Source: Thermanaeromonas toyohensis ToBE
Lineage (GTDB): Bacteria; Bacillota; DSM-521; Neomoorellales; Neomoorellaceae
Assembly: GCF_900176005.1 (NCBI RefSeq)
Contig: NZ_LT838272.1
Location: 392,501 to 456,500 of the forward strand
Reading direction: 5' to 3'
Length of the DNA: 64,000 nucleotides
Shown in pieces: positions 14,657 through 38,571 of the stretch. Both the position numbers and the translations under genes were made by a program. The notes under the pieces were generated by a model. That model was not told the origin of the DNA. It saw only the letters and a program-made list of their open reading frames with translations, and did no database searches. The stretch's first letter is position 1; the number at the start of each line of letters is the position of its first letter.

Positions 14657-14715
14657 ACCTTGCCAGGCCCTAAGGTAGGAATTAAAGTAGGAATCAAGAA
14701 AAGAAGTAGCGAAGT

Positions 14716-14918
14716 ACGGGTGCCCTTAACCTTTAAAGGGTAAAGGGTTAAAAGGGAAGCCGGTGAGAATCCGGCGCGGTCCCGCCACTGTGAAGGGGAG
14801 GGCCTTACATTTAGGTCACTGGGGTTTTAAGCCCTGGGAAGACGTAAGGTTCCGGTGAACCTGAGCCAGGAAACCTGCCCGTTGACTTTTAGCTTGCCCA
14901 CCTACGCGGATAGGGAGG
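14716..14918 (+). promoter_or_regulatory. Cobalamin riboswitch 1 (B12 element)
   Basis: The B12-element landmarks are present in order: 'gaagccggtgagaatccggc', 'gcggtcccgccactgtgaa', 'gtcactgg', 'ggaagac', and the B12 box 'agccaggaaacctgcc'. It is followed by a strong terminator and then cobN, so adenosylcobalamin should shut off the chelatase transcript. It is almost identical to the element at 20085-20287. It fills most of the 339-nt gap here. Confidence 0.96.
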
Positions 14919-20023: not shown

Positions 20024-20084
20024 TACCCATGCTAAACTATACTCGAATAGTTGGATATTAAAATTAAATAGCCTGTAGGAGGTA

Positions 20085-20287
20085 ACGGGTGCCCTTAACC
20101 TTTAAAGGGTAGGGGTTAAAAGGGAAGCCGGTGAGAATCCGGCGCGGTCCCGCCACTGTGAAGGGGAGGGGCCTTACATTTAGGTCACTGGGGTTTTAAG
20201 CCCTGGGAAGACGTAAGGTTCCGGTGAACCTGAGCCAGGAAACCTGCCCGTTGACCTTTAACTTACCAACCTACGCGGATAGGGAGG
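20085..20287 (+). promoter_or_regulatory. Cobalamin riboswitch 2 (B12 element)
   Basis: Same landmarks as riboswitch 1, including 'gaagccggtgagaatccggc', 'cccgccactgtgaa' and the B12 box 'agccaggaaacctgcc'. It leads the binding protein-permease-ATPase-cbiZ operon. The two aptamers differ at only a handful of positions over about 203 nt. Confidence 0.96.
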
Positions 20288-21624: not shown

Positions 21625-21685
21625 ACTTAAACAAATAAATGGTAGGACTTAAGCTCATAAGCCTTTTCTTAAGGCGGGATGGCGA

Positions 21686-22714
21686 TTGCGAAGCTTTATT
21701 AACCCATGGCTTAAATACTGGTTTATTTTTCTAGCCTTTGTGGGCCTCTTGTGCCTTATCTTTTTTTTAAATATCGCGCTGGGTTCAGTTTCTATATCCT
21801 TGGGAGAAGTGGTCCGCATCCTTGGAGAGGGGCCAACGGGAAAGGGGGTAAATACAGCCGTAATCTGGGAAATCAGGTTTCCCCGGACGCTAGGTGTTAT
21901 CATTGGGGGAGCCTCCTTGGCTACCAGCGGCCTACTCCTCCAGGTATTTTTCCGCAATCCTATAGTGGAGCCCTATGTCCTAGGGGTTTCGTCTGGTGCC
22001 ACCCTGATGGTAGCCTTAACTATGCTTACTAGCCTTTCCCTAGGGATGACTAGGTTTTCCCCTTTGTTTTTAAGCGGAGCAGCTTTGACGGGTGCTTTGG
22101 GGGTCATGGTGCTAGTTATGATCCTGGCTGCGCGGGTTCAAAACATAATAACCCTTTTAGTTACTGGTCTTATGATGGGCTACCTGTGTAGTGCAATAAC
22201 TACCATCCTAGTTGCCCTGGCCGAAAAAGAAAGGCTACATGGTTTCGTGTTATGGACTTTGGGGAGTTTTTCGGGTTTTACTTGGCAACAGGTCTACCTT
22301 CTGGTGATGGTTGCCGTCCCTTTGTTAGCCTTTTCATTTTTTCTAGGTAAACCCTTAAATGCCTTTTTATTAGGAGAAAACTACGCCCGCAGTATGGGAG
22401 TAAGTATCAAGGCTTTACGGGTAACCATAGTAGTCTTAGCTAGCTCCCTCACAGGTGCTGTTACTGCCTTTGCTGGGCCGGTGGCCTTTATCGGCCTGGC
22501 TGTTCCCCATCTGGCCAGGCTTCTCTTAGGCAGCTCCGATAACAGAATCCTTCTCCCTGCTGTAGTTTTACTTGGCGCAGTAGTTACTAGCCTCTGTGAT
22601 TTGCTGGCCAGATCAATACTTAGCCCTGTAGAATTACCCGTAAGCGCCCTGACTTCTTTTTTCGGCGCACCTCTAATAGTAAGCCTTTTGCTTAAAAGGA
22701 GGACGGCTTTATGA
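21686..22714 (+). CDS. ABC transporter permease (BtuC/FecCD family)
   Basis: A 342-aa polytopic membrane protein with the FecCD-family signatures: RFPRTLGVIIGGASLATSG (first cytoplasmic/TM junction), VEPYVLGVSSGA and, near the end, GPVAFIGLAVPHLAR with LLPAVVLLGAVV. About nine to ten hydrophobic segments are visible. It forms the channel for the binding protein encoded upstream. The start is TTG behind a weak GGCGGG-type SD. Its stop overlaps the next start by 4 nt (ATGA), so translation is coupled. Confidence 0.9.
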   Translation: MRSFINPWLKYWFIFLAFVGLLCLIFFLNIALGSVSISLGEVVRILGEGPTGKGVNTAVIWEIRFPRTLGVIIGGASLATSGLLLQVFFRNPIVEPYVLGVSSGATLMVALTMLTSLSLGMTRFSPLFLSGAALTGALGVMVLVMILAARVQNIITLLVTGLMMGYLCSAITTILVALAEKERLHGFVLWTLGSFSGFTWQQVYLLVMVAVPLLAFSFFLGKPLNAFLLGENYARSMGVSIKALRVTIVVLASSLTGAVTAFAGPVAFIGLAVPHLARLLLGSSDNRILLPAVVLLGAVVTSLCDLLARSILSPVELPVSALTSFFGAPLIVSLLLKRRTAL

Positions 22715-24024
22715 AGGTGCTGGAGGCTAAGGAGCTGGCTATTGGCTACAGGGATCGTAAGGTAGTGGAGGGGGTAAATTTTAAAGCCTTTAAGGGTCAG
22801 TTTATCTGCCTTTTAGGACCTAACGGGTCGGGGAAATCTACCCTCCTCCGCTGCCTGGCCGGGTTACTGGCTCCCCAGAAAGGGGCGGTCTATCTTAAAG
22901 GCCAAAGCTTATACCACTTCCTAGCTAAGGATCTGGCTAAACATATGGCCGTAGTTCTGACAGAGCGCGTATCAGTAGAATTATTGAGAGTCTTTGATCT
23001 GGTAGCCATGGGGCGCTATCCCTATACCGGAATCTGGGGCCGGCTTAAGGAAGAAGATAATAAAAAGGTATGGGAAGCCTTAAACTTAGTCCATGCCCAG
23101 GACCTAGCCTTTCGATATTTTGGTGAGTTAAGCGATGGGGAAAAACAGAAAGTATTGTTAGCCCGGGCCCTGGCCCAGGATCCTGAACTGATTATCTTAG
23201 ATGAACCGACCACCCATTTAGATGTACGTCACCGTCTGGAAGTCACTTCTATTTTACGTCACCTGTCCGGGGAAAAGGGTATTACCATAATCGCTTCTTT
23301 GCATGATCTAGATCTCGCCCTTAAAACCTGTGAGTTAGCCATACTAGTTAAAAATGGAAAAATTTTGGCTTGGGGGCCCCCGGAAGAAATTTTAACAGAG
23401 AACATAATAGCCGAGCTATATGATATTAAGGATGCTTGTTTTAATGAATACCTGGGAAGCCTGGAGTTAAAAGCAAGGGGCCATCCCGAAATATACGTAT
23501 TCGGTGGAGGAGGAAGGGCGGCTACGTTGTATCGCATTCTGGCCAAGAGGGGGTTTGGTATCCTTACGGGGGTAATTCACGAAAATGATATTGATTACTA
23601 TATCGCCCGAGCTATAGGGGCTACCATTATAAGTGAGAGGCCCTTCGAGGAAATAAGTTTAGAGGCCTTTAAAAAGGCGAGCAAGCTTTTGGAGCGGGTA
23701 AGTTGGGTGGTGGATGCTGGGTACCCCGTGGGGTTATTAAATAGGCGAAATTTAGAACTCCTTCGCCAGGCTGTGGCCAGGGGCAAAGAAGTTTATACTT
23801 TACGATCTCAGAAGGAGGCCTTTAATCTTTATGGAAACCTAGCTCAAGGATTTATTTACTGTTCTAACTGGAAAAACCTAATAGATTATTTCTGTAAGCC
23901 CCAGGAGAGGCCTAGGCAGGAGGCCTGGGCAGAGGTTAACCAGGCTTCGCCTTGTGCAAGTGTAGGAAGGGGCAGAGTTATACCTAAAGCAGATAGGGAG
24001 GAAGCAGGCCATGCTCCCGTATAA
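22711..24024 (+). CDS. ABC transporter ATPase (BtuD/FecE type) with C-terminal extra domain
   Basis: A 437-aa protein; the transporter ATPase occupies about residues 1-250, with Walker A GPNGSGKST, signature LSDGEKQKV, Walker B ELIILDEPTTHLD and a switch histidine in ASLHDLDLA. The remaining 180 residues form a separate domain opening with a Rossmann-like YVFGGGGRAA and containing HENDIDYYIARAIGA. Ordinary BtuD is about 250 aa, so this is a fusion. Similar tails occur on archaeal cobalamin-type ATPases, to my memory. It overlaps the permease by 4 nt and cbiZ by 14 nt. The tail's role is unknown. Confidence 0.88.
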   Translation: MKVLEAKELAIGYRDRKVVEGVNFKAFKGQFICLLGPNGSGKSTLLRCLAGLLAPQKGAVYLKGQSLYHFLAKDLAKHMAVVLTERVSVELLRVFDLVAMGRYPYTGIWGRLKEEDNKKVWEALNLVHAQDLAFRYFGELSDGEKQKVLLARALAQDPELIILDEPTTHLDVRHRLEVTSILRHLSGEKGITIIASLHDLDLALKTCELAILVKNGKILAWGPPEEILTENIIAELYDIKDACFNEYLGSLELKARGHPEIYVFGGGGRAATLYRILAKRGFGILTGVIHENDIDYYIARAIGATIISERPFEEISLEAFKKASKLLERVSWVVDAGYPVGLLNRRNLELLRQAVARGKEVYTLRSQKEAFNLYGNLAQGFIYCSNWKNLIDYFCKPQERPRQEAWAEVNQASPCASVGRGRVIPKADREEAGHAPV

Positions 24025-25063
24025 GATTGAGAAGGACACCCTTATTGTCCATTTCCCTGGCCCCCGCCGGGTAGTAAGCACAGCGAGATTTAACGGTGGA
24101 TACCGTGAGGATTTAAAAGCTATATTCAACCATCACATTCCCGCAGATAGACATGATCCTTCCACCTTACCAGGGGGGAGCCTCCAGGGCTATTTTGATT
24201 ATCTGGTAGATACATTAGGGCTTTCCCGGGAACATACAGCGGGGTTGTTTACAGCAGCTCATATGGAAAATGCTGCTGTCAAAACTATAAGCTTTCGAGA
24301 GTTAGAAGTTAGCGCCATAGTTACTGCCGGGGTAGATGTGAACGGAGGCCGGGCTGGAGATCCAGCGCGGTATTATGAAATCGATGGCCAGTGGATTTTT
24401 ACCCCCGGGACCATTAACATCATTCTACTTATCGAAGGAAACCTTCCTCCCCCTACCCTGGTACGTACGCTAATTACAGCTACGGAAGCCAAGGCTGCCG
24501 CCCTTCAGGAGCTTATGGCCCCCAGCCGTTATTCCCGGGGCATTGCTACCGGATCAGGGACTGATCAAATAATTGCGGTAGCTAATCCTCAATCCCCTTA
24601 TATGTTTTCTGATGCTGGTAAGCATTCCAAATTGGGAGAACTGATAGGTGTAGCGGTAAAGGAGGCCGTCAAGGAAGCGCTGGAGAAGGAAACTGGGCTA
24701 AATCCAGAGCGCCAGTGCAGCTTCTTGGTAAGACTTGAGCGGTATGGGTGGCGAGCGGAAGATTTCTGGCGCCAGGCTGTCCGGGAAGGGTTTAATCTTA
24801 ACCGGGACCAGTACCTAAAATGTTTGGTTCAGATAGAAAAAGATCCGGCCTTGGTAGCTTTGGCGGCAGGCTTAATTCATTTGTGTGACGAATACGAATG
24901 GGGGCTTTTACCGGCTGAAACTGTGCTGGAGGCAGGCTATAAGTTTATCCAGGGCTACCTGGGAGGACCAGGAGACCTTCTCCTTTCTAGAGAAAAGGAT
25001 CCGGTAACTTGTTTAGGAAAGTGGTTTATAAGCTTGGTGAATAAAGTAATAGGCGATGGATAG
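24011..25063 (+). CDS. cbiZ: Adenosylcobinamide amidohydrolase CbiZ
   Basis: This 350-aa corrinoid-salvage enzyme removes the aminopropanol or nucleotide-loop side chain from cobinamides or cobamides, giving cobyric acid for remodelling. Family blocks are clear: TAAHMENAAVKT (about residues 77-88), VTAGVDVNGGRAGDP, the TATEAKAAALQEL helix and ATGSGTDQIIAVA. The last 100 residues are an extra helical region. The start codon lies inside the end of the ATPase gene (14-nt overlap), with SD 'aggaagc' before it. Linkage to a B12-type importer under a B12 riboswitch is the usual CbiZ context. Confidence 0.9.
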   Translation: MLPYKIEKDTLIVHFPGPRRVVSTARFNGGYREDLKAIFNHHIPADRHDPSTLPGGSLQGYFDYLVDTLGLSREHTAGLFTAAHMENAAVKTISFRELEVSAIVTAGVDVNGGRAGDPARYYEIDGQWIFTPGTINIILLIEGNLPPPTLVRTLITATEAKAAALQELMAPSRYSRGIATGSGTDQIIAVANPQSPYMFSDAGKHSKLGELIGVAVKEAVKEALEKETGLNPERQCSFLVRLERYGWRAEDFWRQAVREGFNLNRDQYLKCLVQIEKDPALVALAAGLIHLCDEYEWGLLPAETVLEAGYKFIQGYLGGPGDLLLSREKDPVTCLGKWFISLVNKVIGDG

Positions 25064-25088
25064 AGTATATGAAGCTACAAAAGCCTGA

Positions 25089-25316: not shown

Positions 25317-27350
25317 ATGCCGGCCTACCGACGTTATGTTTATCCCTTTACTGCCCTTATAGGCCAGGACAAGATGAAGTTAGCCCTTATCCTTAATGTT
25401 ATCAACCCCCGGATAGGCGGGGTACTAGTGCGGGGTGAAAAAGGGACGGGCAAGTCCACGGCGGTGAGGGCCTTAGCTAATCTCTTGCCGGAAATTGAGG
25501 TGGTGGCCGGGTGCCCCTGCAACTGTGATCCCCGGGATACCTGCAGACTTTGCCCCTTTTGCCAGGAACGCCGGGCAGCAGGGGAGACTTTGGCCTCTAT
25601 TACCCGCCCGGTTCCCGTAGTGGATCTTCCCGTTTCAGCCACCGAGGACCGGGTGGTAGGCTCCCTTGACATGGAATATGCCCTCCGCCAGGGCCGGCGA
25701 CGCTTTGAACCGGGGATTTTAGCCCAGGCTAACCGGGGTTTCCTTTATGTAGATGAAGTTAACCTCCTGGATGATCATCTGGTAGACATATTGCTCGATG
25801 TAGCTGCTTCAGGGGTCAATGTGGTAGAGCGTGAGGGTATAGCCTTTGTCCACCCTGCTCGGTTTGTCTTGGTAGGCACCATGAACCCTGAGGAAGGGGA
25901 ACTACGGCCCCAATTTTTGGATCGCTTCGGCCTCTGTGTACCGGTGGAGGGAATAACTGACCTTAAGGATAGAGTGGCCATCCTCCAAAGAAGGGAAGCC
26001 TTTGATAACGATCCCTTAGGTTTTCTAGCTTCTTTCGCCGAGCAAGAACAAGAGATGCGGGAAAGAATCAAAAAAGCTTGTGCCCTCTTACCGCAGGTTA
26101 CCTTGCCCCCACCGGTACTAGCCCTTATTGCGGAACTTGTGGAAGAAGCTAAAGCGGCCGGGCAGCGGGCGGAGATCACTATGGCGGAAGCTGCCCGGGC
26201 TCTAGCCGCCTGGGAGGGGCGCGGGGTAGTAGAAGCTAAAGATGTAGAAAGGGTGGCTGATCTCGTTTTATACCACCGGCGGCGTAAAATAATGCCACCG
26301 CAGGAAAGGGAAGAACTCCAGAACCCCTCGCCTCCCTCTACAGATGATGGGGGAGAGCCCAAGGAAAATGAAACGGGGCCATCCTCAAGCCAGGAGAACT
26401 CTAGCTGGGAGGTCTCAAGCACTAAAAGGACGGAAGAATCTTTAACTACAGAAGAAACTCAGGAGGAAGGAAAGATAGAGAAGCTTCCTTCACCCGGCCG
26501 GGAAACAGTTTTTAGCATGGGTGAACCCTTCCCGGTAAAGCGGATCGAATACCAGCGGGACCGCAAATTACGCCGAGGCTCTGGTCGGCGCTCGCGGACC
26601 AGGACTCCCACCAAGCTTGGCCGTTATGTTCGGGCTACCCTATGGCGCGGTGGACAGGATCTAGCCTTTGATGCCACCTTACGGGCTGCTGCACCTTACC
26701 AAAACGTAAGGCCAAGGAATGGGCTAGCTCTGGCGATTGAAAGTTCTGACCTACGGGAAAAAGTGCGGGAGAGGCGCATCGGGAATTTCCTGTTGTTTGT
26801 AGTGGATGCTTCGGGATCTATGGGTGCTGAGCAGCGCATGGTGGCAGCCAAGGGGGCTATACTTTCTCTACTTATAGATGCCTACCAGAAGCGGGACCGG
26901 GTAGGCATGGTAGCCTTTAAGGGGGAAAAGGCTGAAGTTTTATTGCCTCCCACCAACAGCGTAGAGCTGGCCGAAAAGCGCCTGGCCGAGCTTCCTACCG
27001 GGGGACGTACTCCCCTGGCTGCTGGGTTATGGAAAGCCTATGAAGTATTACGCGCTCACTTGCTTAAAGATCCTTACCTGGCACCCATGATGATAATTGT
27101 CTCTGACGGCAGGGCTAATGTGAGCCTGACAGGAGGCAAGCCCTGGGAAGATGTCCAGCGGGTAGCCGGGGTTATCCGGGAGGAAAGAAGGATAAAAACC
27201 TTGGTAATAGATGTAGAAAAAGAGGGATACCTTTCCTTTGGCCTAGCCCGAAAGTTAGCGGAAGGGCTTGAAGCGCAGTATTACAAAATCGAAGATTTGA
27301 AGGCTGATATCCTAGTTAAAGCCATCCGGTCCTTTAAAGGTAGTTCATAA
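25317..27350 (+). CDS. Fused chelatase I-D subunit (AAA+ plus VWA), ChlI-ChlD type
   Basis: A 677-aa motor/adaptor for a CobN-type chelatase. The AAA+ part (about 1-340) has Walker A GEKGTGKST (40-48), a Cys-rich insert (CPCNCDPRDTCRLCPFC, about 64-80) in place of the usual loop, and Walker [12 protein letters not shown] (about 143-153). An acidic, Ser/Glu-rich linker (about 340-410) precedes a basic stretch and a VWA domain (about 490-677) with the MIDAS signature DASGS near residue 496. It supplies ATP-driven metal insertion with either CobN encoded nearby. It is first gene after candidate attenuator A. Annotation as Mg-chelatase would mislead; no bacteriochlorophyll genes are present. Confidence 0.9.
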   Translation: MPAYRRYVYPFTALIGQDKMKLALILNVINPRIGGVLVRGEKGTGKSTAVRALANLLPEIEVVAGCPCNCDPRDTCRLCPFCQERRAAGETLASITRPVPVVDLPVSATEDRVVGSLDMEYALRQGRRRFEPGILAQANRGFLYVDEVNLLDDHLVDILLDVAASGVNVVEREGIAFVHPARFVLVGTMNPEEGELRPQFLDRFGLCVPVEGITDLKDRVAILQRREAFDNDPLGFLASFAEQEQEMRERIKKACALLPQVTLPPPVLALIAELVEEAKAAGQRAEITMAEAARALAAWEGRGVVEAKDVERVADLVLYHRRRKIMPPQEREELQNPSPPSTDDGGEPKENETGPSSSQENSSWEVSSTKRTEESLTTEETQEEGKIEKLPSPGRETVFSMGEPFPVKRIEYQRDRKLRRGSGRRSRTRTPTKLGRYVRATLWRGGQDLAFDATLRAAAPYQNVRPRNGLALAIESSDLREKVRERRIGNFLLFVVDASGSMGAEQRMVAAKGAILSLLIDAYQKRDRVGMVAFKGEKAEVLLPPTNSVELAEKRLAELPTGGRTPLAAGLWKAYEVLRAHLLKDPYLAPMMIIVSDGRANVSLTGGKPWEDVQRVAGVIREERRIKTLVIDVEKEGYLSFGLARKLAEGLEAQYYKIEDLKADILVKAIRSFKGSS

Positions 27351-27470: not shown

Positions 27471-28496
27471 ATGGAGAGATACGTTTATCCCTTTACTGCC
27501 ATAGTGGGGCAAGATTTAATGAAAAAGGCCCTGCTTTTAAATGCTATTAATCCCAAGCTTTCTGGGGTGCTTATCCGGGGGGAGAAGGGTACTGCCAAAT
27601 CTACGGCGGTCAGGGCCTTAGCCCAGCTCCTACCTGAAATAGAGGTGGTGGCTGATTGTCCCTTCAGTTGTGATCCCGAGGACCCCACTGCCATGTGCGA
27701 GGGCTGCCGACAGCGTCTAGATAATGGGGAGAAGCTTCCCCGTTTAAGAAGAAAGATGCGGGTGGTGGATTTGCCAGTTTCCGCTACTGAGGACCGGGTA
27801 GTGGGAACTCTGGACGTGGAGCACGCTATAAAAAGGGGTGAAAAGCGTTTTGAACCAGGGATTTTAGCTTTGGCTAACCGGGGTATCCTTTACGTAGACG
27901 AAGTTAACCTTCTGGACGATCACCTGGTAGACGTTTTGCTGGATGCGGCGGCCATGGGAGTTAACATTGTCGAGCGCGAAGGGGTATCCTTCATTCATCC
28001 GGCCCAGTTTATTTTAATCGGTACTATGAACCCGGAAGAAGGGGAACTTAGGCCACAGCTCCTGGACCGCTTTGGCTTATGTGTAAACATTACAGGGGTT
28101 ACAGATCCGGCTTTAAGGGTAGAAATTGTAAAGCGCCGGGCGGCCTTTGAAGATGACCCGGCTGGTTTCCTTTTAGCTTGGGAAGAGGAGCAGCGGAAAT
28201 TACAAGAAAAGATTGTGCAAGCCCGCCTGCTTTTACCCCAAGTCTATATTCCTGAGGAAATGCTTCTTTTAATAGCCCGGACAGCTATTGAGATGGGAGT
28301 AGATGGGCATCGGGCGGACCTCGTTATGATGAAGGCGGCTAAGACCCATGCTGCCCTAGAGGGGCGTACACAAGTGACTGAAGAGGACATCCGGGAAACT
28401 GCCGAACTGGCCCTGATCCACCGCATGCGGCGCCAGCCTTTCCAGGACTTAAGGTTAGATTATGAGAAGCTAGCGGGGATTTTAGGGAGTAGATAG
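27471..28496 (+). CDS. Chelatase I subunit (AAA+ ATPase), ChlI type
   Basis: A 341-aa AAA+ protein, closely related to the N-terminal half of the preceding gene. Walker A is GEKGTAKST (37-45), with Ala where the fusion has Gly; the Cys-bearing loop is [17 protein letters not shown]; Walker B is [11 protein letters not shown]. There is no VWA domain, so it needs a D partner, most likely the fused protein 120 nt upstream. SD 'ggggagg' precedes the ATG. It was probably copied from, or the source of, the I part of the fusion. Confidence 0.92.
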
Positions 28497-28634: not shown

Positions 28635-28702
28635 AAGGCCACGGAGGCCTTAACTCCTGCCAAGGAGGACAGGTTTTTTCGTGGCCTTTACTTTTTCTTT
28701 TT
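28635..28702 (+). promoter_or_regulatory. Candidate attenuator B upstream of the second cobN
   Basis: AAGGCCAC (28635-28642) pairs perfectly with GTGGCCTT (28681-28688), followed by a T-rich tract to 28702. Alternatively AAGGCC pairs with GGCCTT (28646-28651) around loop ACGGA. An inner CTCCT/AGGAG stem lies in the long loop. It shares the motif GGCCACGGAGGCCT with attenuator A. A separate stable hairpin, GGTGGC-CGGA-GCCACC, lies about 80 nt upstream in the same leader. Confidence 0.5.
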
Positions 28703-28720
28703 AGCGGGGTGGAAAAAGCC

Positions 28721-31700
28721 ATGCGGAAAATCACCGCCATTGTATGGCACAGTTACGCTACCACCATGCGCAGGGCAGCGGCCAAGGTACAGGATCGCCT
28801 TAAAGTAAAGGTATATTCTGCCCGCAACTTGCAAGAAGGAAAAGAAGATCTAAAGATGGCCCAGGCGGACTTGGCCGCTTCTGATCTCGTCTTCCTTTAC
28901 CGTTCTACAGGGGAAACCATTTGGGAAGAACTGGAGGGTTTCCTCCGGGAGCTCAACCGGCCGGTGGTCTCTTTAGCCCATGACCCCTCCTTATGGTCCC
29001 TTTCTACAGTGCCTGCAGAAACTGTAGCCAAGGGGTATGAGTACATTGTACAAAATGGGGAAGAAAATTTCGCTCGCCTCTTTATTTACCTCGCCGCCAC
29101 GGTTCTAGGTGCCCCCTTTAAGGTGGAGGAACCGTTGATTTACCCCTGGGACGGAATTTATCACCCTGAGGCCCCTTTCTATTTTTCTTCCATAGAAGAT
29201 TATCTGGCCTGGTATAAGCGCGAATCTCCCTTAGTGGGCATTCTCTTCGCCCGCAACCACTGGGTGAATAGAAACCTAGAGGTAGAGGATGCCCTTATTC
29301 GAGCGTTAGAGGCCCGGGGCTTAGGCGTTGTTCCAGTTTTCTGTTACCCCCTCAAAGATGAAAGCCTGGGCACCAAGGGTGCGGGGGAGATAGTTAGGGA
29401 GTTTTTCTTAGAATCTCCCGGCCGGAGCCGTATAAGGGCTCTCCTTAAGCTTATTTCCTTTTTCTTAACAGCCCGGGCCCGCACAGATGAGGTAATTAAG
29501 GAAGGGGTCGCGGCCTCTGGTGTTAATATCCTAAAGGAACTAGGGGTTCCCGTTTTCCAGCCTGTTATTTCCTTTTATAAGACCATTGAGGAATGGTTGG
29601 CCGATCCCCAGGGATTAAACCAGGACATCTCCTGGAGCATAGCTTTACCTGAATTTGAAGGGGTTATCGAGCCTATATTTTTGGGTGGGGCCCAGAGGGA
29701 AGGAGAGCTGGAAGTAAGACAGCCGGTGCTGGAACGGGTGGAGCGCCTAGCTGATCGTGTGGCCAAATGGATAAATTTACAAGAGAAACCAGTGGAGAAA
29801 AGGCGTGTGGCTTTTATCCTACATAACAACCCTTGCGCTTCTGTAGAGGCCACGGTAGGCGGGGGTGCTAATCTGGATACTTTAGAGAGCGTGGCCAGGA
29901 TTTTAAAGCGGATGCAAGAAGAGGGTTACCGGGTGGAAGCACCAGCGAGCGGCAAGGAATTAATCGATACCATAATGGAACGTAAAGCTATTTCTGAGTT
30001 CCGCTGGACTACTGTGGAAGAGATCGTTTCTAAAGGCGGAGCATTAAAGCTTATGACTGTGGAAGAGTACCGAGAGTGGTTCGATAAGCTCTCCCCCCGG
30101 GTGAAGGAACGGGTTATCCAGGCCTGGGGTACCCCGCCGGGAGAACCTAAGAATGGTGTACCTGCGGCCATGGTCTACCAGGGTAAGATTGTTATAACTG
30201 GAGTTAGGTATGGCAACGCCGTGGTGTGTGTACAGCCCAAGCGGGGATGCGCCGGTGCCCGCTGTGATGGACAGGTCTGCAAGATTCTCCATGACCCAGA
30301 CCTCCCGCCTCCCCATCAATACTTGGCTACTTACCGTTTTCTAGAGCGGGACTTTGGGGCGGATGTAATTGTACATGTAGGTACCCACGGTAACCTAGAG
30401 TTTTTACCCGGCAAGGGAGTGGGCCTTTCCAGGGAATGTTATCCTGATCTGGCCATCGGCACTCTCCCCCACCTTTACATTTATAATGCGGATAACCCGC
30501 CGGAGGGAACCATCGCCAAAAGGAGAAGCTACGCCACCCTAGTAGACCACATGCAGACGGTGATGACTGGGGGCGGACTTTACGACGAGTTGGCCGAGCT
30601 GGAGCGGTATCTGGAGGAGTACGAAAAGGCCAAGGTAGCCGATCCGGCCCGGGCCCATACCCTAGAACATTTAATTATTAAAGAGATCCAAAAGACCAAC
30701 CTGGATAAACAAATCCCTGTGGAAGACGGCCATGGGAACTTCGCCGCCATAGCTGAAAAGGCCCATGCTGTGCTCTCAGTTGTCCGCAACACGCAAATCC
30801 AGGACGGCCAGCACATCTTTGGTGAGCTACCGCAAGGAGAGCGGCGCATAGAGTTCATTAACTCTATCTTGCGCTTTGACGTGGGGGAAAAGGTTTCTTT
30901 GCGCCGGGCCGTGGCCAAGCTTATGGATCTGGATCTGGCCGAGCTTTTGGCTGACCAGGGGAGGTTTTCCTTACGCTTTGGCAAATCCTACGGCGCTCTT
31001 CTGGAAGAAGTTGAGACGGCGGCTAAGGCCTTTATTGGCCGTTTCCTAAAAGGCCAGGAAGTGGACCCCGCCTTTGCCCAGGAGGTCTTAGGGGATAAGT
31101 TCCTCTGCCCTGAGGCTTTGGCGGAAGTAAACGCCCTTTTGCCTCGGGTGTTGGATTTGAACCAGCGCATTGAAGCCTCCGAGGAGATAGAATCCCTTTT
31201 GGCCGGCTTTGATGGCAAGTATATTCCTGCTGGCCCCTCGGGGCTTATCACCAGGGGGCGGGATGATGTTCTACCCACGGGAAGGAATTTTTATTCCCTC
31301 GACCCCTACCGGGTGCCTACCCGCGCGGCCTGGGAAGTAGGCAAGCGCCTAGCGGAGAAGATCCTGGAAAAACACCTGGCCGAAGAGGGCCGTTACCCAG
31401 AGAACATTGCCCTTTACTGGATGGCTAACGACATTATGTGGGCAGATGGTGAAGGCTTAGGGCAAATGTTCTACCTTTTGGGTGTGCGGCCCAAGTGGCT
31501 GCCCAACGGCCGGGTGGCGGGTATCGAGGTTATTCCGCTAGAAGAGCTGGGGCGTCCGCGCATTGACCTGACCGTACGGGTTTCTGGTATCACCCGGGAT
31601 AACTTCCCCAATTGTATAGAGCTTTTGGATGAGGCTATCCAGCTTGTGGCAGCTCTAGAGGAGCCCCTAGAACAGAATTACGTGCGCAAGCACACGTTAG

Positions 31701-32575
31701 AGCAACTGAACGGCCAGAAGGACCCGCAGGCCTTTAGAGAGGCCACCTTCCGCATCTTTGCTTCCAAGCCAGGTACTTACCAGGCGGGGGTAAACCTGGC
31801 CGTTTACGCTTCGGCCTGGAAGGATGAAAAAGACCTGGCGGACATCTTCCTTTACTGGAACGGCTATGCTTACGGCAAGGGCGTCTTTGGGAAAGAGGCC
31901 TTCCGCCAGCTTAAGGCTAGCCTTAAGACTGTAGACATTACCTACAATAAGGTGGTCACCGACGAATACGACCTGTTTGGCTGCTGTTGCTATTTCGGTA
32001 CCCACGGCGGTATGACTGCTGCTGCCCGGGTGGCTTCTGGTAAAGAGGTGAAGACCTACTACGGCGACACTAGGGAGCCCGAGCACGTGGAAGTGCGGAC
32101 CTTGGCAGAGGAAATTCGGCGGGTGGTACGTACCAAATTACTCAATCCTAAGTGGATCGAAGGCCAGAAGAGGCACGGCTACAAGGGCGCCGGAGACATT
32201 TCCAAGAGAATCGGACGGGTCTTCGGTTGGGAAGCTACTACCCAGGAAGTGGATGACTGGATCTTTGATGATATTACCCGGACCTTTGTGTTAAATGAGG
32301 AAAACCGTCGCTTCTTTGAAGAGCACAATCCTTGGGCTTTGGAGGAAATCGCTCGCAGGCTATTGGAGGCCCACCAGCGGGGCCTGTGGAACGCCGACCC
32401 CGAGGTGCTGGAGGGCTTAAAAGAATATTACCTGGAGATTGAAGGATGGCTAGAGGAGAAGATGGGCGAAGTTAAAGGCGACTTCCAGGGAGGCGCTATT
32501 GACATCCTCACCGCTGAAGAGGTAGCCGATTGGGGAGCTAAAATGCGGGAGATTAAAGAAAAATTAGGGAGGTAG
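28721..32575 (+). CDS. CobN-family chelatase large subunit, cysteine-rich variant
   Basis: A 1284-aa CobN/BchH-family protein, clearly divergent from the canonical copy at 14996. Shared blocks: HVGTHGNLEFLPGKG (H552/H556), NPPEGTIAKRR, PTGRNFYSLDP, THGGM, NPKWIE, RHGYKGA. Differences: where CobN1 reads GIQPPRGF, this protein has CVQPKRGC followed by two more Cys (C503, C510, C515, C520); where CobN1 has an Asp-rich turn before YHGGM, it has three consecutive Cys (1088-1090). The N-domain reads NNPCASVEATVGGGANLD. I chose ATG 28721 (GGGGTGG 8 nt upstream) over GTG 28709. Metal inserted or removed is unknown; the clusters suggest an Fe-S or thiolate site. Confidence 0.88.
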   Translation: MRKITAIVWHSYATTMRRAAAKVQDRLKVKVYSARNLQEGKEDLKMAQADLAASDLVFLYRSTGETIWEELEGFLRELNRPVVSLAHDPSLWSLSTVPAETVAKGYEYIVQNGEENFARLFIYLAATVLGAPFKVEEPLIYPWDGIYHPEAPFYFSSIEDYLAWYKRESPLVGILFARNHWVNRNLEVEDALIRALEARGLGVVPVFCYPLKDESLGTKGAGEIVREFFLESPGRSRIRALLKLISFFLTARARTDEVIKEGVAASGVNILKELGVPVFQPVISFYKTIEEWLADPQGLNQDISWSIALPEFEGVIEPIFLGGAQREGELEVRQPVLERVERLADRVAKWINLQEKPVEKRRVAFILHNNPCASVEATVGGGANLDTLESVARILKRMQEEGYRVEAPASGKELIDTIMERKAISEFRWTTVEEIVSKGGALKLMTVEEYREWFDKLSPRVKERVIQAWGTPPGEPKNGVPAAMVYQGKIVITGVRYGNAVVCVQPKRGCAGARCDGQVCKILHDPDLPPPHQYLATYRFLERDFGADVIVHVGTHGNLEFLPGKGVGLSRECYPDLAIGTLPHLYIYNADNPPEGTIAKRRSYATLVDHMQTVMTGGGLYDELAELERYLEEYEKAKVADPARAHTLEHLIIKEIQKTNLDKQIPVEDGHGNFAAIAEKAHAVLSVVRNTQIQDGQHIFGELPQGERRIEFINSILRFDVGEKVSLRRAVAKLMDLDLAELLADQGRFSLRFGKSYGALLEEVETAAKAFIGRFLKGQEVDPAFAQEVLGDKFLCPEALAEVNALLPRVLDLNQRIEASEEIESLLAGFDGKYIPAGPSGLITRGRDDVLPTGRNFYSLDPYRVPTRAAWEVGKRLAEKILEKHLAEEGRYPENIALYWMANDIMWADGEGLGQMFYLLGVRPKWLPNGRVAGIEVIPLEELGRPRIDLTVRVSGITRDNFPNCIELLDEAIQLVAALEEPLEQNYVRKHTLEQLNGQKDPQAFREATFRIFASKPGTYQAGVNLAVYASAWKDEKDLADIFLYWNGYAYGKGVFGKEAFRQLKASLKTVDITYNKVVTDEYDLFGCCCYFGTHGGMTAAARVASGKEVKTYYGDTREPEHVEVRTLAEEIRRVVRTKLLNPKWIEGQKRHGYKGAGDISKRIGRVFGWEATTQEVDDWIFDDITRTFVLNEENRRFFEEHNPWALEEIARRLLEAHQRGLWNADPEVLEGLKEYYLEIEGWLEEKMGEVKGDFQGGAIDILTAEEVADWGAKMREIKEKLGR

Positions 32576-32727
32576 AGGAAAGTGACTAGAAGCTACCGAC
32601 TTCACCCAAGCGGCAGCTCTTCAAAAGAAGGCCTTGCAGAATCAGGTTCTAGGGCAGACAGTAACAAGCTTTTGAGCAGCCACAAGAGTTGTGCGGCAGC
32701 AAATTTAAATTTTGAGGGGGTTGGGTG

Positions 32728-33789
32728 ATGCAGTTAAAAAAGAGTGCTTTTGCAAGTTTTATCATTGTTGCTATTATGCTTGTTGTTTGGCTGACTGGAT
32801 GCGGACAGCAAAAAGAAAAACCAGAAACCGCTGGGATTGTGATTACCGACGCTGCAGGGAAAACTATTAGCCTATCCCGACCGTTGCAGCGGGTAGTGAT
32901 ATTGACCCCTTCCATTGCTGAAGCCATGCGCCTTTTAAAAGTGCCGGATGAAGCAATAGTGGGCGTAAGCGATAACGTGCAGAATATGCCATTCTTGGGC
33001 CTAAAGAACAAGCCCCTGGTAGGTAAATGGACTCAGCCAAATGTGGAAAAAATAGCGGAGCTTAAGCCAGAGGCGGTGCTTACCTATGGCAAATATCCGT
33101 CTAAAGAAGTAAGGGATAAGATTGAGGCCCTAGGGATTAAGGTAATTGGCGTAGATTTCTACTATCTGGATAAATACGATGAGGATTTTCTCCGGGTGGC
33201 CAAAGTCTTTGGTAAAGAAGCAAGAGCACAGCAGTTTCTACAGTGGAAAAACCAACATCTAGCAACTATTGAGAAGCGTCTGGCCGGGAGCAAAAATAAA
33301 CCGGGGATACTATGCCTTTGGACAACTTACTTTACTAAAGGAACTTGGAAAACTTTTGCCCCGGGTTCTTCCTACGACCAAGCAATAAATTTAGCCGGAG
33401 GGATCAACCTGGCCAGCGAACTCCCTGCTTCGCCGGAAACACCGGAAGTAAGTGGGGAGTGGGTACTCAGTAAAAATCCTGAAGCTCTGGTGATGGTTTA
33501 TACTAGCGATGGTCTGGGCTACAACATACAAGATCTAAATAAGGTTAAAGAGCTGGAGAAAGAGGTAAAGAAGAATCCCGTGCTAAGCAAAACCAAAGCG
33601 GTAGAAAATAAAAAAGTTTACTTTTTAAATATCTCAGGTCTGGGTAGGTTTGTGGAGGTTATTTACCTGGCCAAGTGGCTTCATCCTGAACATTTCCAGG
33701 ATGTTAATCCCGAACAAATTTTAAAGGAATACTTCGAGAAGTGGCTTGAGGTGCCTTTTAAAGGCAAATGGGCTTATCCCGAGCCCTAA
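32728..33789 (+). CDS. ABC transporter substrate-binding lipoprotein (BtuF/FecB type)
   Basis: A 353-aa binding protein with a signal peptide and lipobox LTGC (C25). The mature part begins TDAAGKTISLSRPLQRVVIL, typical of the iron-chelate/B12 binding class. ATG 32728 is preferred because GAGGGGG ends 7 nt before it; a GTG at 32725 is also in frame. It is first of a four-gene importer set (two binding proteins, permease, ATPase) directly after the cysteine-rich cobN. The ligand is probably a metallo-tetrapyrrole or metal chelate; no B12 riboswitch precedes this gene. Confidence 0.87.
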   Translation: MQLKKSAFASFIIVAIMLVVWLTGCGQQKEKPETAGIVITDAAGKTISLSRPLQRVVILTPSIAEAMRLLKVPDEAIVGVSDNVQNMPFLGLKNKPLVGKWTQPNVEKIAELKPEAVLTYGKYPSKEVRDKIEALGIKVIGVDFYYLDKYDEDFLRVAKVFGKEARAQQFLQWKNQHLATIEKRLAGSKNKPGILCLWTTYFTKGTWKTFAPGSSYDQAINLAGGINLASELPASPETPEVSGEWVLSKNPEALVMVYTSDGLGYNIQDLNKVKELEKEVKKNPVLSKTKAVENKKVYFLNISGLGRFVEVIYLAKWLHPEHFQDVNPEQILKEYFEKWLEVPFKGKWAYPEP

Positions 33790-33818
33790 AGTTTTGAGGA
33801 AGGGAGTGTTTTTAAAAA

Positions 33819-34865
33819 GTGAAAACCCGGAGGATTTTAGGATTAGCAATTGGTTTAGTGCTTATTTTATCGACCTTAACAGGTTGCGTTCAAAAACAGA
33901 CGGCACAGCCAGCCAAGGGAAAAATTACCATCACCGACTCTTTAGGCCGGCAGGTAGAAGTTCCCTGCCCACCCCAGCGCATAGTCTCCGTCAACAGCGA
34001 TGTCTCGGAGGTGATCTGTGCCCTGGGAGCTCAAGATAAAATTGTAGGGGTAGCTGATACTGCTGACTTCCCACCACTTATTAAAGACAAGGCCAAAGTG
34101 GGACAGGCTTTTACCCCTAGCGTGGAAAAGATTTTAGAACTTAAGCCGGATATTGTTTTTGGCTACGGAAAGTTCCTCAAATCCGAATTGGCTCAAAAGA
34201 TCGAGGCTGCCGGCATACCTTTAGTTTACCTGGACTGTTACAAAGTAAAAACCATGGCTCAGGACATAAAAACCCTGGGCCAGATCCTGGGTAGGGAAAA
34301 AGAAGCCGCGGAATATGTAGCCCTGTTTGAAAACTCCTTAAAGCAGGTTACGGAACGTGTAAAAGACCTTAAGCCCGAGGAGAAGGTACCTGTTTACCTG
34401 GAGGGCTATACTGATTATAGTGCCAACGGACCCGGTTCCGGCGGGGCGGAGATGCTGGAATTGGTTGGTGGGAAAAATATTGCAGCGCATGAGTCTGTCC
34501 CTTACCCTACGGTTAGCCCGGAGTGGGTAGTGAGCAAAAACCCGCAGGTTATTATTAAAGCTGCTAGCAGCCGTGTTAAACATGGCTATGGGGCTCCTGA
34601 GGAAGGGATGAAGAAAATGCGGGAGCAGATTATTTCCCGTCCCGGCTGGCAGCAGATCCGGGCCGTAAAAGAGGGCCGGGTTTACGTCATCTCTAGTGAA
34701 ATTTACACTGGCCCACGAGCGTCGGTGGGTATAGCTTACTTTGCCAAGTGGCTTTATCCAAAGCTTTTTGCCGACCTTGATCCTGAGGCTATCCATAAAG
34801 AATTTTTAAGCCGGTTTCACGGGTTAGAATTAAAAGGAACCTGGGTTTATCCGCAAGCTCGTTAA
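33819..34865 (+). CDS. Second ABC transporter substrate-binding lipoprotein (BtuF/FecB type)
   Basis: A 348-aa lipoprotein (lipobox LTGC, C23) of the same class as its upstream neighbour but clearly diverged; its mature start is ITDSLGRQVEVPCPPQRIVSV. The C-terminal endings of the pair are alike (AKWLYPKLF and AKWLHPEHF, then GTWVYP and GKWAYP), which points to an old tandem duplication. The start is GTG with 'gaagggag' about 13 nt upstream. Two binding proteins for one permease suggest two ligands or affinities. Confidence 0.88.
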   Translation: MKTRRILGLAIGLVLILSTLTGCVQKQTAQPAKGKITITDSLGRQVEVPCPPQRIVSVNSDVSEVICALGAQDKIVGVADTADFPPLIKDKAKVGQAFTPSVEKILELKPDIVFGYGKFLKSELAQKIEAAGIPLVYLDCYKVKTMAQDIKTLGQILGREKEAAEYVALFENSLKQVTERVKDLKPEEKVPVYLEGYTDYSANGPGSGGAEMLELVGGKNIAAHESVPYPTVSPEWVVSKNPQVIIKAASSRVKHGYGAPEEGMKKMREQIISRPGWQQIRAVKEGRVYVISSEIYTGPRASVGIAYFAKWLYPKLFADLDPEAIHKEFLSRFHGLELKGTWVYPQAR

Positions 34866-34918: not shown

Positions 34919-36031
34919 ATGGACCTACTGGGCCAAGTACATGGCCTTGCGGAAGAGAATTTACTAGCTATTAGAAAGGCTTATTCCCGTCATACTGGTC
35001 GCAAGGTGTTTTTTCTCATTATTTTGCTGGGCGTGCTTGTGGGAAGTATACTTTTTTCCACGGCTTTAGGAGCTGCCGGGATAAGTGTAAGGGATGTGGG
35101 GAGGGCTATCCTCTCCCATTGGGGCCTAAAGACTTTCCCAGAAAATGAGCTGGCGGAAACAGTGGTCTGGCAGCTCCGCCTTCCCCGCGCTTTTCTGGCT
35201 GTCCTTACGGGGATGAGCTTAGCCGGTGCCGGGGCAGTAATGCAGGGGGTTTTACGCAACCCCCTGGTCTCTCCTTATACGTTAGGTCTTTCTAGCGGAG
35301 CAGCCTTTGGAGCGGCCATGGCCATTGTACTGGGGACAGGTTTACTGGGCGGGAGCTATTTGACTCTTTCCAAGTGGCTGATCGTTACCAACGCCTTTAT
35401 TTTCGGGGCTTTGACCATGGTTTTGGCCTTTTGTTTAGCTGCCCTTAAGGGGTTAGCCCCAGAGGTGTTGGTGCTGGGAGGGGTAGCTGTTGGCTATCTC
35501 TTTCAGGCTGGCGTCTCCCTTTTAAAGTACATTTCCAACCATGAGGCCTTAAGGGAACTGGTAGTGTGGTTGATGGGAGGGTTTTGGGGAGCGAACTGGC
35601 AGACTGTAGGGGTGCTAGCGCCCATAGTTTTGGGTTCTATTTTGGGGCTCCTCTACTTTGCCTGGGACTTAAACGTGCTGGGGGCTGGGGAAGAAGTGGC
35701 AGCAAACCTAGGGGTAAATGTAAAGCGGGTACGCTTTTTCACACTAGGGCTTTCTACCCTGGTCGCCTCGGCAGCAGTTGCCTTTACGGGGATTATTGGC
35801 TTTATAGGCTTGGTTTCGCCCCATATCTGCCGCCTGCTCATTGGCAGCGACAACCGGTTTCTTATACCATCTTCCTGCTTGATGGGGGCAGTGCTGTTGC
35901 TTCTTTCCGATACCCTGGCCCGGACTATTATAGCGCCTACTGAGTTACCAGTGGGAATCATTACTGCTTTTATTGGCGCGCCGTTTTTTATCTACTTGCT
36001 GGTTAAGAAGAAGAGACAGTGGTGGGGGTAG
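34919..36031 (+). CDS. ABC transporter permease (BtuC/FecCD family)
   Basis: A 370-aa integral membrane protein. It has a hydrophilic N-terminal lead of about 28 residues, then about nine to ten membrane segments. FecCD signatures: RLPRAFLAVLTGMSLAGAG, NPLVSPYTLGLSSGA, GIIGFIGLVSPHICR and LIPSSCLMGAVLL. SD 'gaggag' is 11 nt before the ATG. It works with the two upstream lipoproteins and the ATPase gene that follows at 16 nt. Confidence 0.9.
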   Translation: MDLLGQVHGLAEENLLAIRKAYSRHTGRKVFFLIILLGVLVGSILFSTALGAAGISVRDVGRAILSHWGLKTFPENELAETVVWQLRLPRAFLAVLTGMSLAGAGAVMQGVLRNPLVSPYTLGLSSGAAFGAAMAIVLGTGLLGGSYLTLSKWLIVTNAFIFGALTMVLAFCLAALKGLAPEVLVLGGVAVGYLFQAGVSLLKYISNHEALRELVVWLMGGFWGANWQTVGVLAPIVLGSILGLLYFAWDLNVLGAGEEVAANLGVNVKRVRFFTLGLSTLVASAAVAFTGIIGFIGLVSPHICRLLIGSDNRFLIPSSCLMGAVLLLLSDTLARTIIAPTELPVGIITAFIGAPFFIYLLVKKKRQWWG

Positions 36032-36047
36032 TAGGAGGGACTTGGGG

Positions 36048-36830
36048 GTGCGCCTTCAAGTAAAAGGGGTTTGTTTTTCCTACGGGAGTGTAGCGGTTTT
36101 GGAAGACGTGACTTTTAAAGTGGAACCTGGAGAGGTCTTAGGAATTGTAGGCCCCAACGGTTCCGGGAAGAGTACTCTTTTGCGGCTCTTGGCCAGGGTC
36201 TTACGGCCTCGCCTGGGAACCATATTTCTGGATGGGAAAAGCCTGGCTAACTTGCGTGGCCGGGAGGTAGGGCGTTATCTAGGCTATGTGCCTCCACCGG
36301 GTAACGGGCAGGCCTTTTCCTGTACAGTTTTAGAGGCAGTTCTCCAGGGACGCAGGCCCCACCTTACCTGGGGAGTGAGCCAGCGGGATCTGGCTGTGGT
36401 TTCCCAGGCTCTAGCCTACTTAGGGTTAACTGGCATGGAGGATCGGCAGCTCCATGAGCTTTCCAGCGGTCAGAGACAGAAGGTGTTTATTGCCCGTGCC
36501 CTGGCCCAGGAACCGGAGGTTTTTCTCCTGGATGAGCCAACGGCTACGCTGGATGTGCGCTATCAGCTGGAAGTCCTGGCGCTTATGCGGGAACTAGCCA
36601 AAAGCTATGGCCGGGTAGTAATAGTTGTTCTACATGATTTAAATCTAGCTGGCCGCTATACTGATCGTTTACTTCTTTTATACCAGGGATGTATTTTTGC
36701 GGCTGGGGTACCTAAGGCCGTATTAACACCAGAAAATATCAAAATGGTCTATGGTATAGAAGCAGCAGTAAATGAATCGCCTTGGGGTTTGCAAGTGATA
36801 CCGGTTGCACCAGTTAACTACTTAAAATAG
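36048..36830 (+). CDS. ABC transporter ATPase (BtuD/FecE family)
   Basis: A 260-aa ATPase of the standard importer length, unlike the extended one at 22711. Walker A GPNGSGKST, signature LSSGQRQKV, Walker B VFLLDEPTATLD and the H-loop VLHDLNLAG are intact. I chose GTG 36048: AGGAGGG lies 8 nt upstream and the protein begins at the usual point before VKGVCFSYG; an upstream start at 35973 would overlap the permease by 59 nt. It is the last gene of the importer cluster. Confidence 0.9.
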   Translation: MRLQVKGVCFSYGSVAVLEDVTFKVEPGEVLGIVGPNGSGKSTLLRLLARVLRPRLGTIFLDGKSLANLRGREVGRYLGYVPPPGNGQAFSCTVLEAVLQGRRPHLTWGVSQRDLAVVSQALAYLGLTGMEDRQLHELSSGQRQKVFIARALAQEPEVFLLDEPTATLDVRYQLEVLALMRELAKSYGRVVIVVLHDLNLAGRYTDRLLLLYQGCIFAAGVPKAVLTPENIKMVYGIEAAVNESPWGLQVIPVAPVNYLK

Positions 36831-36908: not shown

Positions 36909-37805
36909 ATGGTTCCACATCCTTTGGTCTCCAAGTCATTAGAAAGGGTGAAAACTGAGCAGTTGATTAAAATCCTGGGCCTCACTAAATGCTATGGCCA
37001 GATCCGGGCAGTAGATAATCTGTACTTAAAGATACATGAAGGCGAAATTTTTGGACTCCTGGGGCCTAATGGTGCGGGGAAAACCACTACTGTTCGCATG
37101 TTGACTATGCTCACGCGCCCTACCTCGGGCGAAGCCTACATTGCGGGCTATGAAATACGCCGGGATCTCGCCAAAGTGCGCCAGGTCATCGGTGTAGTAC
37201 CGCAGCACTTTAACCTTGATAACGAACTTACTGCTTGGGAAAACTTAGAGCTCCATGGACGGCTTTACCATATACCTGCTCCAGAGCGGAACCGGCGGAT
37301 AGAAGAACTCCTAGATTTCGTGGAACTTAAAGCGCGGGCTGACGATCTGGTGGGCACTTTCTCCGGGGGAATGAAACGGCGCCTTATGATTATAAGAGCC
37401 CTCCTACATAAGCCCCGGGTTCTTTTTATGGATGAGCCTACCGTGGGTCTAGATCCCCAGGCCAGGCGCAAGATCTGGGACTTTATCCGGCGGCTAAATA
37501 ATGAAGGGGTGACTGTTCTTCTTACCACCCACTATATTGAAGAGGCCGAAGCCCTTTGCCACCGGGTAGGCATTATGGATAAGGGGAAACTTATCGCCTT
37601 GGGGAGCCCGGCTGAGCTAAAGCAAAAAGTAGGGCGGATAGTAGTGGAAACTTTTAAGGATAAGGAAACAGAATACCGCTTCTTTTCTTCCCGAGAGGAG
37701 GCTCTAGGCTATGCGCGCGAACTCTCCGGCAATATAGTTATAAGGGAGTCCAACTTAGAAGATGTTTTTGTAGAATTGACCGGCCGCAAGGTCGAGGCAG
37801 ATTAA
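36909..37805 (+). CDS. ABC-2 type exporter ATPase
   Basis: A 298-aa ATPase of the DrrA/CcmA-like export class: Walker A GPNGAGKTT, signature FSGGMKRRL, Walker B VLFMDEPTVGLD, H-loop TTHYIEEAE, and a C-terminal regulatory tail ending EDVFVELTGR. It pairs with the ABC-2 permease 22 nt downstream. The start is uncertain: the ATG at 36909 lacks a clear SD and an in-frame GTG at 36948 behind GAAAGG is possible. Exported substrate unknown. Confidence 0.88.
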   Translation: MVPHPLVSKSLERVKTEQLIKILGLTKCYGQIRAVDNLYLKIHEGEIFGLLGPNGAGKTTTVRMLTMLTRPTSGEAYIAGYEIRRDLAKVRQVIGVVPQHFNLDNELTAWENLELHGRLYHIPAPERNRRIEELLDFVELKARADDLVGTFSGGMKRRLMIIRALLHKPRVLFMDEPTVGLDPQARRKIWDFIRRLNNEGVTVLLTTHYIEEAEALCHRVGIMDKGKLIALGSPAELKQKVGRIVVETFKDKETEYRFFSSREEALGYARELSGNIVIRESNLEDVFVELTGRKVEAD

Positions 37806-37827: not shown

Positions 37828-38571
37828 GTGGTGATAAAAATCGAGTTTTATACTGTTTTCTGGCGCGAGATGCTGGCCTTCAGGCGCACCTTTTACAAGT
37901 TTTTGGCCTCAAGACTCATAAGTCCCCTTCTTTATCTTGTAGCCTTCGGTTGGGGTTTAGGTAGGGGGATAAGGCTTAATGGCTATAATTATCTGGACTT
38001 TGTAGTACCCGGTATTATTGCCCTTTCGGCCATGAGCACGAGCTTCAATGCTGTCGGTTTCTCCCTTAACATGAGCCGCTTGTATTATAAAACCCTAGAA
38101 GAATATCTCCTGGCTCCCATAAGCAGCATAAGTTTAGTATTAGGTATTACCTTGGGTGGCACTGTGCGGGGGTTAGTGGCCTCCCTTATTATCCTGGTAC
38201 TGGCTTTTCTTTTTGGTTCTTCTATGTTCCTTAATCCATGGTTTTTTGTAATAATTATCTTGACTAGCTTTCTCTTTTCTGCTCTGGGAGTGGTGGCGGC
38301 CATGACCATCAACTCCCACGAGGATATGTCTAACTTTTCTACCTTTGTTATTTTACCCATGTCCTTCTTAAGTGGGACCTTTTTCTCACCGGAACATTTG
38401 CCCCGCCTTGTGACCTATATCATCAATGTCCTGCCCCTTACACATGCTAGTTATGCCTTACGGGCCCTAGCCCAGAGGGGGGAACTCTTACCTTTTTCTT
38501 TAGTAGTGTTGCTGGCCTACGCCTCAGCCCTTTTTGCTGCCGCTGTGGTAATTGTTGGAAAAGCGAGGTAA
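37828..38571 (+). CDS. ABC-2 type transporter permease
   Basis: A 247-aa membrane protein with about six hydrophobic segments and the ABC-2 features YLDFVVPGIIALSAM and FLSGTFFSPEHLP. It forms an exporter with the ATPase before it. The start is odd: AAGGTGGTGAT spans both in-frame GTG codons (37828, 37831), so the SD would overlap them. A non-standard start at ATA/ATC (37834-37842) or re-use of GTG is possible. Substrate unknown. Confidence 0.82.
   Translation: MVIKIEFYTVFWREMLAFRRTFYKFLASRLISPLLYLVAFGWGLGRGIRLNGYNYLDFVVPGIIALSAMSTSFNAVGFSLNMSRLYYKTLEEYLLAPISSISLVLGITLGGTVRGLVASLIILVLAFLFGSSMFLNPWFFVIIILTSFLFSALGVVAAMTINSHEDMSNFSTFVILPMSFLSGTFFSPEHLPRLVTYIINVLPLTHASYALRALAQRGELLPFSLVVLLAYASALFAAAVVIVGKAR

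Follow-up and report, generated by a model that had tools for sequence, protein, structure and literature searches.

The closest described relatives of CobN2, a predicted protein encoded in a 64,000-nucleotide stretch of Thermanaeromonas toyohensis ToBE DNA (contig NZ_LT838272.1, positions 392,501 to 456,500; hereafter, the window), are the large subunits of class I chelatases: CobN of CobNST, the heme dechelatase HmuS of Bacteroidota (PDB 9d26, 9p4s) and ChlH/BchH of magnesium chelatase. In HmuS, a single cation is shared by H538 and H1209 from opposite sides of the cleft, Loop I gates this cleft, and the sheet of domain III is ordered with beta1 beside beta5 beside beta6 (PMC12583661). Demetallation by HmuS depends on a reductant, for which the electron route is unknown; a membrane anchor and an MRI insert are among the features reported for it, whereas the paper mentions no ATPase and does not discuss cysteine or iron-sulfur (Fe-S) ligands (PMC12583661). 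The same paper also delineates an archaeal/thermophile 'CobN' cluster from Methanobacteriota and thermophilic or methanogenic bacteria, which is unlinked to other cob genes and unclear in function (PMC12583661). For BchH of R. capsulatus, a [4Fe-4S] cluster with a CX2CX3CX14C motif has been reported, as cited in PMC6069883.

Our analysis revealed that CobN2 belongs to a distinct, single-origin clade of these large subunits, marked by five invariant cysteines, C372, C510, C515, C520 and C1088 (the five-Cys clade), which probably hold an Fe-S cluster or another thiolate-bound metal. CobN2 shares with HmuS the fold, the H538/E577 dyad, an equivalent of Loop I and the importer neighbourhood. However, C1089/C1090 and C520 are found where HmuS has Asp1208/His1209 and Phe502, and the CobN2 gene adjoins ChlI/ChlID genes, whereas the HmuS paper is without any mention of an ATPase (PMC12583661). 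The best match in both sequence and structure is CobN of CobNST (M. tuberculosis 7c6o; 9uk9), and the NCBIfam model NF004646 names the clade CobN, but CobN of CobNST has no lid cysteines and a shorter Loop I. ChlH/BchH shares the fold, the motor subunits and the equivalents of E625/E660, but not cysteines of the CobN2 type. The unassigned 'CobN' cluster delineated in the HmuS paper (PMC12583661) is likely to be the five-Cys clade. In an open-access search, which did not cover subscription papers, we found no paper on these five cysteines.

CobN2 as a class I chelatase large subunit

CobN2 matches PF02514 over residues 106-1229 (1338.7 bits; residues are numbered from the ATG at 28721, although the longest open reading frame begins at an in-frame GTG at 28709), which places it in the CobN/ChlH superfamily. 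A second PF02514 protein of the window, CobN1, which has none of the CobN2 cysteines named here, served as the comparison protein; such proteins are referred to as non-Cys CobN. The best NCBIfam model for CobN2 is NF004646 (1985 bits against a cut-off of 1468, which CobN1 does not reach). CobN2 also passes TIGR02257 for CobN (855 bits, cut-off 822) and, likewise, TIGR02025 for BchH (854.5 bits, cut-off 829); therefore, the curated CobN models do not discriminate in this case. A Foldseek search with the AlphaFold2 (AF2) model of CobN2 (pLDDT 88.7, pTM 0.89) yielded CobN 7c6o (TM 0.80, E 7e-82), HmuS 9d26 (0.80) and ChlH 4zhj (0.77). The superfamily residues H552, H556, E560 and E595 are kept in 129-131 of 131 aligned class I chelatase large subunits, CobN2 included, with E560 and E595 present in every one.

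Five invariant cysteines define a single clade

The relatives in this aligned set were taken from GTDB genomes, 299 genomes of the host phylum, 197 genomes of the methanogen phylum, selected loci and plasmids. The five cysteines are all present in 78 of the 131 proteins, a number that is not a census because sampling proceeded through NF004646 matches. They are all absent from 50, and three proteins have one; two to four were found in no protein. The pattern is thus far from chance. Intermediates that we fetched deliberately, with scores down to 1246 bits, are likewise all-or-none. In a FastTree tree built without the cysteine columns, one branch with support 99 separates the 78 five-Cys proteins from all the others, and IQ-TREE, likewise without these columns, recovered the same branch from 41 diverse rows (SH-aLRT 99). 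Members of the clade are found in Firmicutes, Thermodesulfobacteria, metagenome-assembled genomes (MAGs) of Fibrobacter, and methanogens and anaerobic methanotrophic archaea (ANME). The genomes that pass the NF004646 search include that of Methanosarcina acetivorans.

The translation of CobN2 contains cysteines at 208, 372, 503, 510, 515, 520, 573, 796, 965, 1088, 1089 and 1090, the codon of C503 starting at 30227 and that of C1090 occupying 31988-31990. CobN1 reads IGIQPPRGFLEDPATIYHSP at the block of the lid cysteines and DMFDSDDFYSYHGGM before its HGGM. A previous sequence-only reading had placed two cysteine groups (503, 510, 515 and 520, and three consecutive residues at 1088-1090) exactly there, and the alignment and the trees show that the groups co-occur and mark one clade, a point that this reading had raised for checking. 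Its count of seven added thiols was accurate only in part: the invariant cysteines that it listed and C1089 were borne out, whereas C503 (a cysteine in only 62 of the 78 clade members) and C1090 are variable and the invariant C372 was overlooked. The five invariant cysteines proved neither poorly conserved among close homologues nor present in canonical CobN or ChlH. C573 is a superfamily-wide cysteine (also in 40 of 53 non-Cys proteins), and the His of HGGM is kept in 60 of the 78 clade members.

Several variants were observed within the clade. Some genomes carry two CobN paralogues of the five-Cys type (G178, with loci L184 and L197; G443; G505). One divergent paralogue (L126, complement 1351-4308) has SLGAES in place of HxGxHG and has thereby lost H552 and H556 while keeping all five cysteines. 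Two separate genes beside ChlI/ChlID, coding for about 803 and 500 amino acids, make up the large subunit in Thermodesulfovibrio, Thermodesulfobacterium and relatives (L030, L031, L034, L035, L015); other species of these two genera have been listed without any large subunit (PMC9227772). In Moorella mulderi (L025, position 12265), and also in L112, an in-frame stop lies directly after the CCC motif of a protein otherwise 79-91% identical to CobN2, which represents either a pseudogene or a sequence error. Selenocysteine or read-through was considered and rejected; the in-frame stop counts of several matches were terminal stops in the copies fetched.

Position of the cysteines relative to the active sites of HmuS and ChlH

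The cysteines were placed by alignment to the published HmuS structure (PMC12583661). H556 and E595 of CobN2 fall on H538 and E577 of HmuS, the two residues being 39 apart in both proteins, and the HVGTHG of CobN2 corresponds to the HFG(T/A)HG motif of this dyad. F502 and H506 of HmuS, 36 and 32 residues before H538, fall on C520 and H524. D1208 and H1209 of HmuS, counted back from GG, fall on C1089 and C1090; here, the LSLDHxxEFMGG of HmuS is replaced by LFGCCCYFGTHGG. By this alignment, C510, C515 and C520 would lie after beta5 on Loop I, which forms a lid over the central cleft. C372, just after the model strand that we take as beta1 of domain III, would be next to Loop I because of the beta1-beta5-beta6 order in HmuS. 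C1088 is predicted on the facing loop of domain V, with C1089 at the Asp position of the His-Asp dyad of HmuS. The earlier suggestion that the cysteines lie in or near the active cleft is thus consistent with HmuS numbering. E625 and E660 of ChlH, placed through solved variants in alignments, correspond to E560 and E595.

A motif similar to that of the BchH [4Fe-4S] cluster, present in BchH of Roseobacter/Roseinatronobacter, aligns close to residues 326-336 of CobN2, in the region joining neck and body, where CobN2 has no cysteine. Homology between the two sets of cysteines was therefore rejected, and the BchH cluster is a precedent, not the same site, because its motif does not map to Loop I.

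Gene neighbourhood and riboswitches

Features of the window are listed in Table 1. Behind a cobalamin riboswitch, a same-strand run (20431-38571) comprises an importer, CbiZ, ChlID, ChlI, CobN2, two substrate-binding proteins (SBPs), a FecCD permease, an ATPase and an ABC-2 exporter pair. The run contains gaps of 120-250 bases, large enough for internal promoters. Scans for promoters and terminators between 19.9 and 38.7 kb gave no excess over shuffles. Both AAA+ motor proteins (25317-28496) contain a cysteine-rich motif of their own.

Table 1. Features of the window discussed in the text
Feature	Position	Strand	Basis or remark
Cobalamin riboswitch directly before CobN1	14701..14896		Rfam
CobN1, non-Cys CobN, comparison protein	14996..18811	+	TIGR02257 1120.6 bits
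Cobalamin riboswitch heading the same-strand run	20070..20265	+	RF00174 127 bits, E 1.6e-31
BtuF/BtuC/BtuD-type importer and CbiZ	20431..25063	+	Set accompanies non-Cys CobN in other Clostridia
ChlI-ChlD fusion (AAA+ and VWA)	25317..27350	+	TIGR02442 808.8 bits, above cut-off
ChlI-type AAA+ motor subunit	27471..28496	+	TIGR02442 531.8 and TIGR02030 464.4 bits, both below cut-off
CobN2, five-Cys class I chelatase large subunit, 1284 amino acids	28721..32575	+	PF02514, NF004646, Foldseek
C372 codon (HNNPC)	29834..29836	+	78/78 within clade, 0/53 outside
Loop I: C503 variable; C510, C515, C520 invariant (CX4CX4C); insertion relative to CobN/ChlH	30227..30280	+	Alignment; HmuS Loop I
H556 codon, counterpart of active-site HmuS H538	30386..30388	+	Kept in 130/131 family members
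C1088 invariant, C1089 75/78, C1090 67/78; domain V strand/helix loop	31982..31990	+	Alignment
Substrate-binding lipoprotein, Peripla_BP_2	32725..33789	+	In many genomes beside five-Cys CobN
Substrate-binding lipoprotein, Peripla_BP_2, IsdE-like below cut-off	33819..34865	+	
FecCD/BtuC-type importer permease	34919..36031	+	PF01032 319 bits
Importer ATPase, BtuD/HmuV/FecE type	35973..36830	+	
ABC-2 exporter ATPase, DrrA type, above cut-off	36909..37805	+	TIGR01188 338.9 bits; near 29/53 five-Cys loci
ABC-2 exporter permease, DrrB/NodJ type	37828..38571	+	Near 22/53 five-Cys loci

Near 53 five-Cys loci, many of them truncated, importer genes were found at 36, ChlI/ChlID at 36 and the exporter ATPase at 29. 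Several Gram-negative members have a TonB receptor gene upstream, whose best family is mostly of the heme type, below cut-off. Riboswitches were called by Rfam; a home-made regular expression for the B12 box missed known riboswitches and was dropped. A cobalamin riboswitch lies upstream in the same run at seven of the eight scanned non-Cys CobN loci, the eighth being truncated. In contrast, most of the scanned five-Cys loci have none ahead of them, with exceptions in L026, in the window and in Moorella, where the five-Cys gene follows a non-Cys CobN. The substrate of CobN2 may therefore be either a corrinoid or another metallo-tetrapyrrole. Iron control through Fur was rejected, as Fur-like boxes were not in excess over shuffles in the scan, except in L184, where the matches are scattered, and a structured leader ahead of the TonB gene in L030 matched no Rfam family.

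Two further observations concern the non-Cys genes. A PapB-like radical SAM/SPASM protein is encoded downstream of CobN1 (18855-19922), with a homologue near 12 of 30 non-Cys CobN loci, and in a relative (L196, 6487-7287) two tandem cobalamin riboswitches precede ChlID/ChlI/non-Cys CobN.

Cobalt insertion in the host

CbiX and CbiD represent the early cobalt-insertion route, whereas insertion by CobNST is a late step of the aerobic route. In the host genome, the genes for CbiX (109.6 bits) and CbiD (322 bits) lie at most 7 kb apart, so that early-insertion genes are present. De novo B12 synthesis can therefore do without a late cobalt-insertion step and, from what is established about the pathway, should not depend on either CobN for its cobalt. 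The host is therefore not one in which cobalt remains to be inserted late, as would be expected for a CobN of the aerobic B12 route. That CobN2 is a spare copy of the cobalt enzyme is unlikely. The sequence-only reading had also taken CobN2 for something other than such a copy, which the separate clade supports; its view of CobN1 as 'the cobalt enzyme' is doubtful in a host with cbiX and cbiD. CobN1 is nevertheless preceded by a cobalamin riboswitch.

Possible functions of the cysteine site

Taken alone, an Fe-S cluster in CobN2 is the reading that we favour and consider rather probable. Removal of a metal similarly appears a better guess than insertion, given the combination of importer and exporter, the early cobalt insertion and the HmuS precedent. 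The complete explanation, in which a ChlI/ChlID-driven chelatase acts on an imported tetrapyrrole and removes its metal with the aid of an Fe-S cluster, is our preferred one, although we propose it tentatively, at slightly less than even chances. The tetrapyrrole would be brought in by the dedicated SBP/FecCD/ABC importer, with a TonB receptor in addition in Gram-negative members, and would bind in the central cleft, flanked by H556/E595 and, opposite them, the cysteine pair. The lid cysteines, together with C372 and/or C1088, would ligate the cluster, most likely [4Fe-4S], and this cluster would loosen the central metal by providing an electron, a soft ligand or both; HmuS demetallation needs a reductant, and a local cluster would be such a source of electrons. 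The ChlI/ChlID motor would provide the energy for setting the metal free, and the freed ring may exit through the ABC-2 exporter. The proposal draws on the all-or-none cysteine set and its single origin, the positions on HmuS, the retained glutamates, the importer, motor and exporter genes near five-Cys loci, the TonB receptors of Gram-negative members, the host's cbiX and cbiD, and the [4Fe-4S] precedent of BchH. Of this picture, the clade, the invariance of its cysteines, their place in the alignment and the gene neighbourhood are shown, whereas the cluster, the direction of the reaction and the substrate are inferred.

Several points weigh against this proposal. CX4CX4C differs from the standard ferredoxin motif, and Loop I is among the weakest stretches of the AF2 model (pLDDT about 60). 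Non-Cys CobN has the same motor and exporter neighbourhood, and the sequence is compatible with removal and with insertion alike. The pattern in L126 suggests that the cysteines may have a role outside the chemistry of the metal site.

A broader formulation, which we regard as speculative and rather unlikely to hold in full, is that the clade represents a further class of ATP-driven class I chelatase, namely a redox-active tetrapyrrole dechelatase of acetogens, sulfate reducers and methanogens/ANME. An Fe-S cluster, bound jointly by the lid loop and the active-site wall, would close over the metallo-tetrapyrrole and reduce it, freeing both metal and ring.

Somewhat less likely still is a mononuclear thiolate site without an Fe-S cluster that captures or delivers Co, Ni, Zn or Cu. 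C1088/C1089 would then be soft axial ligands facing H556, and the ion would be relayed by the lid cysteines. The exact coincidence of C1089/C1090 with the Asp1208/His1209 dyad of HmuS fits such a site, as does the presence of five to six near-invariant cysteines, which exceeds the need of a four-ligand cluster. However, three close lid cysteines combined with remote ones would resemble a cluster-binding loop more.

It is also unlikely, to a slightly greater degree, that CobN2 is a late cobaltochelatase for salvage, which, when B12 is short, inserts Co into corrinoids imported in a damaged or cobalt-free form, the cysteines contributing to stability or redox tuning. The cobalamin riboswitch at the head of the window run and of the L026 operon would agree with this role, as would the CbiZ and BtuFCD-type genes upstream of CobN2 and the retention of E560/E595, whose counterparts have been studied in ChlH. 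In the host phylum, five-Cys genomes are also enriched in acetyl-CoA synthase, part of a corrinoid-dependent pathway (9/13 versus 81/286, Fisher p 0.003, uncorrected for kinship), a link that is not strict, as several five-Cys genomes lack the enzyme. On the other hand, the riboswitch is missing ahead of most scanned five-Cys loci, unlike at the non-Cys loci, and heme families give most of the Gram-negative receptors and SBPs their highest scores, although these stay below cut-off. A purely structural role, in which a zinc or disulfide pins the lid loop and the cysteines take no part in catalysis, would account for their retention in L126 after the loss of H552 and H556, but is improbable, since the clade extends beyond thermophiles (to Methanosarcina as well as Fibrobacter MAGs) and the same genome has a non-Cys paralogue that needs no such site.

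Conclusions

A large and deep 'CobN' branch in corrinoid-rich anaerobes is annotated as cobaltochelatase despite a fixed, diagnostic difference at the metal site. If a cluster is bound by these cysteines, it would be an Fe-S site next to the metal within the cleft of a chelatase, distinct in location from the BchH cluster, and could answer how class I dechelatases obtain the electron that HmuS needs. The role of CobN in organisms with early cobalt insertion thereby becomes directly testable.

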